Assembly: GCA_021821785.1 (NCBI GenBank)
Contig: JAKACD010000013.1
Coordinates: 1 to 34,633 of the forward strand
Length of the DNA stretch: 34,633 nt
Reading direction: 5' to 3'
From: Thermoplasmata archaeon
GTDB lineage: Archaea > Thermoplasmatota > Thermoplasmata > Lutacidiplasmatales > UBA184
Shown here: positions 10,753 through 13,216 of the stretch, one piece after another
Numbering within the stretch: position 1 is the first letter of the stretch
Layout: each line of letters starts with the position of its first letter
Program-made: the position numbers and the translations under genes
The notes under the pieces: generated by a model
Database searches by the model: none
What the model saw: only the letters and a program-made list of their open reading frames with translations
What the model was told of the DNA's origin: nothing

Positions 10753-10878
10753 TTCCGACCGGGCCGTTCGAACGGGCCCAAGGCCGGTCTCCGAGCGGTG
10801 GAGGCGCCCCCCGCGGGAATTTGCGCACCTCAAAGAACGTATATTCCTCCGCGGCTCCCCGGGGATCGGTGGATTCGA

Positions 10879-11733
10879 ATGGCGGCTTACGCCCACCCGG
10901 AAGTGCTCGTGGAGAACGACTGGCTCGAGGCCCACCTGGGCGACCCGAAGGTGCGCGTCGCAGAGGTCGACTACGACCCGGCGGCGAACTACGCGATGGG
11001 CCACGTTCCGGGCTCGGTCCTGTTCGACTGGCGAAAGGACATCAATGACCCCGTGGGCCGGGACATTCTGAGCGCGGAGGCCCTCACGGGTCTCTTCCAG
11101 CGAGCGGGCATCGACGACGACTCTACGCTCGTCCTCTACGGGGATTTCAACAACTGGTTCGCGGCGTTCGCCTTCTGGGTCTTCAGCTACTACGGCGTTT
11201 CCCAGGTGAAGCTCCTCAACGGCGGCCGGAAGAAGTGGATCGTCGAGGACCGCCCCCTCACGAAGGAAGTACCTACGCCGCCGCGGGGTCGGTTCTCCGC
11301 CCGACCCGCCGACCCAAAGCTTCGGGCCTACCTCGAGGATGTGCGCGCCGCGCTGCCGGCGGTGAGGGCCGGCCGCCTCCATCTGGTCGATGTCCGGGGC
11401 CCGAAGGAGTTCTCGGGGGAGATCACGGCCCCGCCGGAGTATCCCCTGGAACATGCGCAGCGGGGCGGGCATATCCCCGGCGCCCGGAACATCCCCTGGG
11501 CCCTGGCGGTGCGGGACGATGGGACGTTCAAGTCGCGGGAAGAGCTCGAGGAGATTTACCGTCGCGCGGGGGTGCTGCCGGACGCTCCGGTGTTCACCTA
11601 CTGCCGTATCGGGGAGCGCTCGAGCCACACCTGGTTCGTCCTCAAGTTCCTGCTCGGGTACCCGGACGTGCGGAACTACGACGGTTCCTGGACGGAGTGG
11701 GGGAACCTGATCCGCACCCCGATCGAGAAGTAG
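10879..11733 (+). CDS. Thiosulfate sulfurtransferase, tandem rhodanese
   Basis: Two rhodanese domains; active-site loop TYCRIGERSSHTWF; gtatatt at 10839 upstream of the ATG. Confidence 0.92.
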   Translation: MAAYAHPEVLVENDWLEAHLGDPKVRVAEVDYDPAANYAMGHVPGSVLFDWRKDINDPVGRDILSAEALTGLFQRAGIDDDSTLVLYGDFNNWFAAFAFWVFSYYGVSQVKLLNGGRKKWIVEDRPLTKEVPTPPRGRFSARPADPKLRAYLEDVRAALPAVRAGRLHLVDVRGPKEFSGEITAPPEYPLEHAQRGGHIPGARNIPWALAVRDDGTFKSREELEEIYRRAGVLPDAPVFTYCRIGERSSHTWFVLKFLLGYPDVRNYDGSWTEWGNLIRTPIEK

Positions 11734-11765: not shown

Positions 11766-12458
11766 TCACCCGCGCCGGCGCCGGGGCCGGGGATCCGCCT
11801 CTTTGCGGACCAGGAACTGATGGATCCCCGCGTCCTTCCGTTGGGCCAGGACGGTGTGGCCGGTCTCGTCCGACCACCGGACCATCTCGATCGGGCTCGT
11901 CGGGTCGTCGGTGACCACGAGCACGGCCTCGCCGGCCGAGCGCCGGGCGAGCTCCTCATTCAGGTTCGTCAGGATCGCCGAGCATTCCCGCCCGATCTCG
12001 TACAGTTCGAGGTCCGGAAGGACCGGCCAGCAACGGATCCCCTGCTGCCGAATGCGCTCCCGGAGCGGCCCGGCGACCGCCGCGGCGGGCAGGAGAAGGT
12101 GATCGGGGTCCTCCGGTCGAAGCGGCCGGATCTCGGCGATCCACCCGTCGGAGTAGGGGGCATCGTTGAGGAGTCGGGGGCGGTCAAGGAGCGCCGCGTT
12201 GCGTCCGACCACGGTGCCGTCGACCGGTATGCGGACCGCGCCGGTGAATCGCAGGCTCTCGACCGTCGCGACCGAGCGATGCCGGGCGAGCGGACCGTCT
12301 ACCGGGCGAAACGTGCAACGCTGGAGGCGACCCGCGAACGCGACGAGCGGCCCGATGAGCCCGATCCGCGCGGTCCCGTCCGCCCTCGGCGCCCACCAGA
12401 CGTCGTGCTCGAGGTCGTACAGCCGATCCTCGGGGAGGAGGCACCCGTCGATCTCCAC
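11766..12458 (-). CDS. Fusion of GcvH/lipoate-binding-like domain (lipoyl Lys replaced by Arg) with TusA-like sulfur-carrier domain
   Basis: N-term YDLEHDVWW..ADGTARIGL..VATVESLRFTGAVRIPVDGTVVGRNAALLDRPRLLNDAPYSDGWIAEIRP follows GcvH; C-term LELYEIGRECSAI...AGEAVLVVTDDPTSPIEMVRWSDETGHTVLAQRKDAGIHQFLVRK follows TusA. Confidence 0.82.
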   Translation of the reverse strand: MEIDGCLLPEDRLYDLEHDVWWAPRADGTARIGLIGPLVAFAGRLQRCTFRPVDGPLARHRSVATVESLRFTGAVRIPVDGTVVGRNAALLDRPRLLNDAPYSDGWIAEIRPLRPEDPDHLLLPAAAVAGPLRERIRQQGIRCWPVLPDLELYEIGRECSAILTNLNEELARRSAGEAVLVVTDDPTSPIEMVRWSDETGHTVLAQRKDAGIHQFLVRKEADPRPRRRRG

Positions 12459-12757: not shown

Positions 12758-13216
12758 TCAGCCGTAGGCGGTCCGGATGAGATATTCCTTCAACCGCTGC
12801 AGTCGGTCGTCCCAGAAGTGGAAGTGCCAGGAACGGGCCTGTTCCCACGCCTCGCCCGCGCCCCAACCCGAGTGCTCCAGCGTGACGTCGACCCCTTCGG
12901 GCGATTCCTGCAGGCGCAGGTAGACCTGGCTCGGCGGCGACGCCGCATGCATCAGGTTCGCGAACGCGGGGGGGCCGATCCAGGTGAAACCGAGGTCGAG
13001 ATCGTTCGTCCGCTGCACGATCTTCCCCGCGCTCTGGAACCGCTCGGGCTCGGTGAAGGTGAGCCGGTACTCCCCGCCCGCCTCGGCCCCGACCGTCGCC
13101 TCGGTGCAGAGCCACCCCTTCAACTGCTCCGGCGTGACCAGGGCGGCGTAGATCATCGGCACCGGGAGCGGCACGGTGACCTGGAGCAGGATCGCGTCCA
13201 ACGGCTCTTCGGGCAC
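12758..13216 (-). CDS. SRPBCC/AHSA1-like domain protein
   Basis: VTVPLPVPMIYAALVTPEQLKGWLCTEATVGAEAGGEYRLTFTEP; TATA-like ctttagg upstream on the minus strand near 13245. Confidence 0.85.
   Translation of the reverse strand: MPEEPLDAILLQVTVPLPVPMIYAALVTPEQLKGWLCTEATVGAEAGGEYRLTFTEPERFQSAGKIVQRTNDLDLGFTWIGPPAFANLMHAASPPSQVYLRLQESPEGVDVTLEHSGWGAGEAWEQARSWHFHFWDDRLQRLKEYLIRTAYG

Follow-up and report, generated by a model that had tools for sequence, protein, structure and literature searches.

LbpA, the lipoate-binding protein of the sHdr sulfur-oxidation system, is thought to act through its lipoate, and its exact part in sulfur oxidation is unsettled. Its lipoyl lysine is strictly conserved in all 95 LbpAs, and the family is further characterized by two conserved cysteines, one towards each terminus, that the glycine cleavage H-protein GcvH lacks (Cao et al. 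2018, PMC6067878). In known sulfur oxidizers, rhodanese and TusA have been proposed to feed LbpA-type systems (PMC6067878). For the Lutacidiplasmatales, the genome paper lists TST and SUOX and proposes the oxidation of thiosulfate-derived sulfite; heterodisulfide-type genes are not mentioned there (PMC9287336).

The window, the whole 34,633-nucleotide stretch analysed here from a Thermoplasmata archaeon, encodes a protein in which two of these families are joined. This open reading frame (11766..12458, minus strand) has a GTG start and specifies 230 amino acids. Its LbpA/GcvH-fold domain spans residues 8-122 (12093..12437, minus strand), with a Pfam GCV_H match over residues 13-122 (E 1.7e-19), and its TusA-fold domain spans residues 150-219 (11802..12011, minus strand), with a Pfam TusA match over residues 156-219 (E 6.7e-8); both matches lie above the gathering cut-off. 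The AlphaFold2 model, built from an alignment of 40 orthologues, reaches a pLDDT of 95 and a pTM of 0.85 and recovers both folds. The first half matches the H-proteins of E. coli and Thermus (TMt 0.89-0.93; 0.90-0.93 for the Foldseek hits 3a8i and 1onl). The second half, a beta-alpha-beta-alpha-beta-beta arrangement according to DSSP of the model, matches IscS-bound TusA (3lvj_C, TMt 0.86).

At the position of the lipoyl lysine, the protein carries Arg70 (codon CGA, 12249..12251, minus strand), in the motif ESLRF and at the tip of the modelled beta hairpin 62-68/72-76. Three cysteines stand out. Cys6 (12441..12443, minus strand) is common to LbpA and not found in GcvH, while the counterpart of LbpA's C-terminal cysteine in the alignment is Cys143 (12030..12032, minus strand; IRC). 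Cys159 (11982..11984, minus strand; ECSA), the predicted persulfide carrier, stands at the start of helix 159-172, the first in the TusA domain. The TusA active-site motif, GRECSAIL, retains the cysteine but has lost the prolines of CPxP. A sequence-only reading had described a GcvH/LbpA-like domain without its lipoyl lysine, followed by a TusA half with its cysteine and without CPxP; profile searches, the model, the PDB folds and the codon bear out this description throughout. Of the two halves, TusA is the better conserved, with a pairwise identity averaging 0.61 as compared with 0.46 in the GcvH half; this fits a carrier with its chemistry in the C-terminal half.

The same reading had the N-terminal part follow GcvH closely. 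This holds for the fold, but the domain is closer to LbpA. In a tree of 76 N-domain rows, comprising bona fide archaeal GcvH, sHdr-cluster LbpAs, other Lys-type relatives and the fusions, bona fide GcvH splits off (100/99) from all the others, and the fusions form a single group (96/84). The N-terminal half scores only 65 and 46 bits against the NCBIfam GcvH models, whose cut-offs are 117 and 116. Because of the tree split and the diagnostic Cys6 and Cys143, the N-terminal half is, as judged from sequence, LbpA-like and not GcvH. All highly complete fusion genomes that were checked also encode a separate GcvH; a glycine-cleavage role of the fusion, already doubted in the sequence-only reading, is thereby ruled out. 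A plasmid-borne Lys-type LbpA-like protein of Acidithiobacillus ferrooxidans shows 39% identity over fusion residues 2-143, ends in CMRC and is encoded near an sHdrB-like gene. This gene, annotated as GcvH on plasmid p1 (NZ_CP040512.1, L208), is clustered with hemerythrins, a globin, a thioredoxin, a DUF2249 gene and the sHdrB-like gene.

The fusion is widespread among relatives of the source organism. Orthologues were found in 29 of 37 same-genus genomes, the window's own included, and beyond the genus they extend to other genera of the family and to a second family within the class; such conservation far exceeds chance. Many of the genomes compared are incomplete MAGs. A scan of GTDB species genomes gave 122 relatives, of which 80 were kept. 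These are mostly Thermoplasmata MAGs, one of them named Ca. Lutacidiplasma silvani, and the remainder are labelled Bathyarchaeota, Crenarchaeota, Thaumarchaeota or Euryarchaeota; soil MAGs are among the distant fusions. Over these 80 loci, the lipoyl site is Arg at 68, Lys at 10, Thr at one and a gap at one. Every readable Thermoplasmata fusion examined has kept the Arg, and no Lys or Thr form among the 80 loci falls within the window's own clade. Lys is found in distant archaeal fusions only, namely in most Bathyarchaeota-labelled ones and at L140, L144 and L145. On a tree built without the lipoyl-site columns, at least four changes are needed to account for the Arg, Lys and Thr states. Cys6 is present at all 80 loci, Cys143 at 78 and Cys159 at 77, the shortfall being alignment gaps. 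Arg70 is thus real and constrained: its fixation in the window's lineage rules out a sequencing error or sporadic mutation, the explanation that homologs with Lys would have favored. As Lys occurs in distant fusions, its loss marks sublineages and does not define the fused family as a whole.

The only neighbor kept across lineages, when the genes of the window were checked in other families, is a tandem-domain rhodanese of the thiosulfate sulfurtransferase type (10798..11733, plus strand; Pfam Rhodanese). It has the active-site loop CRIGERSSH, and its closest PDB matches are Thermus 1uar (E 1.7e-109) and 3aax (E 4.7e-89). The rhodanese partner hinted at from the sequence alone is confirmed, and it adjoins the fusion gene almost everywhere. 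Of the loci that have both genes, 70 are convergent, one is co-directional (L145, from a Thaumarchaeota-labelled MAG), and no other orientation occurs. In 68 of the 70 convergent pairs, 2-76 bp separate the ends of the open frames. The two genes are unlinked in G010, G438 and G439, yet each of these genomes has both. Most genomes without the fusion are also without the rhodanese, and both are missing from the near-complete G018, G096 and G340; a rhodanese without the fusion occurs in G241, G157 and G028. Being convergent, the neighbors are not an operon. An AHSA1/SRPBCC-family gene (window 12758-13216) adjoins the fusion in most same-genus genomes and not in other lineages.

Rhodanese paralogues were also seen directly adjoining the gene of a sulfite-oxidase-type molybdenum enzyme, on the same strand, in G016 (L203, G016:C91) and G035 (L204, G035:C4). 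This arrangement suggests a route from thiosulfate via sulfite to sulfate, and it fits thiosulfate as the donor, split to sulfite. A tie between the fusion itself and sulfite oxidase was considered and set aside as patchy, since complete genomes with the fusion, G029 among them, lack the enzyme, while G018 has it and no fusion.

Taken together, these observations favor, with a probability of roughly 0.6, a two-domain cytoplasmic sulfur carrier, which would be loaded by the rhodanese on Cys159 and in which a non-lipoylated LbpA-like domain would dock or relay. The N-terminal half would have descended from the LbpA side of the GcvH family, that of the sulfur-type lipoate-binding proteins, with the lipoylation lysine lost in this lineage. 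Thiosulfate is the most likely source of the sulfane sulfur that the tandem rhodanese would take up and pass on to Cys159 in the TusA half. The LbpA-like domain, free of lipoate, may provide a docking surface and possibly a relay via Cys6 and Cys143. The persulfide would then be delivered to a putative acceptor, for which the sHdr complex may serve in the minority of genomes having it; in the rest, the acceptor must be a different one. This mechanism is supported by the assignment of both domains by profile and fold, the placement of the N-domain with LbpA (100/99), the LbpA cysteines, the retained Arg70 and the rhodanese pairing. It is weakened by the convergent, non-operon arrangement, the rhodaneses that occur without a fusion and the absent CPxP.

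A link to sHdr, implied by the sequence-only reading, would make the fusion an accessory that brings rhodanese sulfur to the sHdr complex in place of separate TusA and LbpA. Its LbpA-like N-terminal half would suit such a role, and in a 57-genome set, sHdrB1 was detected in nine genomes, all of them with the fusion. The own genome of the window encodes sHdrC1-B1-A on contig C29 (L178, G000:C29), and AprA, DsrE, TusA, SQR-like and Lys-type LbpA-like genes on contig C78 (L031, G000:C78); together with Mrp/ApbC, they form a dissimilatory sulfur-oxidation set. However, the fusion gene is neither in nor beside the sHdr cluster and occurs in many sHdr-free genomes, including G029 (100% complete), G019 (97%) and G002 (95%). 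The query that gave the nine positives, which serve as its control, found no sHdrB1 in any of the 14 distant genomes with a fusion; in G241, there is an sHdr cluster and no fusion. Moreover, sHdr genomes retain separate LbpA and TusA genes. The accessory role is accordingly improbable, and the distribution rules out the fusion as an obligate sHdr part: the module of rhodanese and fusion is separable from sHdr. Full sHdr-LbpA-DsrE-LplA clusters are found in nearby genomes, with LbpA of the Lys type. A second group of Lys-type LbpA-like proteins (ES[ED]K), which evolves fast, lies among DsrE, TusA and SQR genes (L031:10563-10982, L034:12612-13286, L036:8398-8835 and L046:831-1487), and in several genomes it is accompanied by a second, divergent LplA.

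The occurrence of the fusion in G029 and G019, which have neither sHdr nor sulfite oxidase, would also suit an N-domain acting as a pseudo-lipoyl regulator or tether, for example by binding lipoate ligase or GcvT-like partners, next to a TusA domain with a housekeeping function in tRNA thiolation or molybdenum cofactor synthesis. The nearest TusA structures are indeed those bound to IscS, and the Arg is held as strictly in the window's lineage as a binding role would require. A mere tether would, however, not need the invariant Cys6 and Cys143, the partner is a rhodanese and not a cysteine desulfurase, and the joint loss of the pair from three near-complete genomes argues against essential housekeeping; we therefore regard such a function as unlikely. 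Somewhat less doubtful is an ancestral fusion that was lipoylated, with working lipoylation surviving in the Lys-bearing archaea and Arg forms that are decaying or partly redundant. The distant Lys forms agree with it. So does a 256-aa LplA-type ligase (PF21948), which was found in six of seven Lys genomes and in neither of two Arg genomes within the Bathyarchaeota-labelled set. This correlation is a lead only, suggestive at best, since it has a chance of about 0.08 by simple counting, rests on few independent events, with two Arg genomes that are sisters, and could be due to incomplete MAGs. Decay, for its part, is hard to reconcile with full-length, intact and highly conserved Arg proteins over dozens of species. 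In L196, L197 and L199, the ligase is preceded by a small ORF that resembles LplB when read by eye. PF21948 was used after a PF03099 search had failed to pick up the sHdr-type ligase of G058 and G047; its match in G435 reads, by eye, like LipB and lies beside an E2 gene. GcvH is also present in the ligase-negative G433.

Beyond the two-domain carrier favored above, a wider view can be put forward tentatively: rhodanese and LbpA-TusA fusion may form a self-contained archaeal relay that operates independently of sHdr. The lipoyl arm would have been dropped more than once, and Cys6, Cys143 and Cys159 would do the carrying. If the relay reading is true, a GcvH-fold protein works in sulfur transfer without its cofactor. 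A conserved LbpA-like domain without a lipoyl site, tied to a TusA-type carrier, splits the docking role from the cofactor chemistry, and the Lys and Arg orthologues offer a ready-made comparison. The finding points to a so far overlooked route of sulfur trafficking in archaea that are widespread in acidic soils, and in which the fusion is probably an undescribed sulfur courier. No paper on such a fusion was found in open-access full text, a body of literature that omits most subscription papers.

Both domains and the rhodanese are of known kinds, and it is the fusion itself that lacks a description in the open-licence papers searched. With the LbpA of the sHdr system, it shares the GcvH fold, the N- and C-terminal cysteines and the grouping apart from GcvH; it differs in being joined to TusA, in lacking the lipoyl lysine in the window's lineage, and in lying outside the sHdr cluster and occurring in genomes without sHdr. 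GcvH has the same overall fold (TMt about 0.9), whereas the fusion has extra cysteines, no lipoyl lysine and sub-cut-off NCBIfam scores, in genomes that encode a separate bona fide GcvH. Like the TusA/SirA carriers (E. coli TusA, PDB 3lvj and 1dcj), the C-terminal half has the beta-alpha-beta-alpha-beta-beta fold with the carrier cysteine opening helix 1, but here ECSA replaces CPxP, the TusA domain is half of a larger protein, and the NCBIfam TusA score is 21 bits against a cut-off of 78. The rhodanese of the window aligns over its full length with the tandem rhodaneses 1uar and 3aax of the putative thiosulfate sulfurtransferase type, from which it is set apart by its pairing with a fusion gene in archaea.
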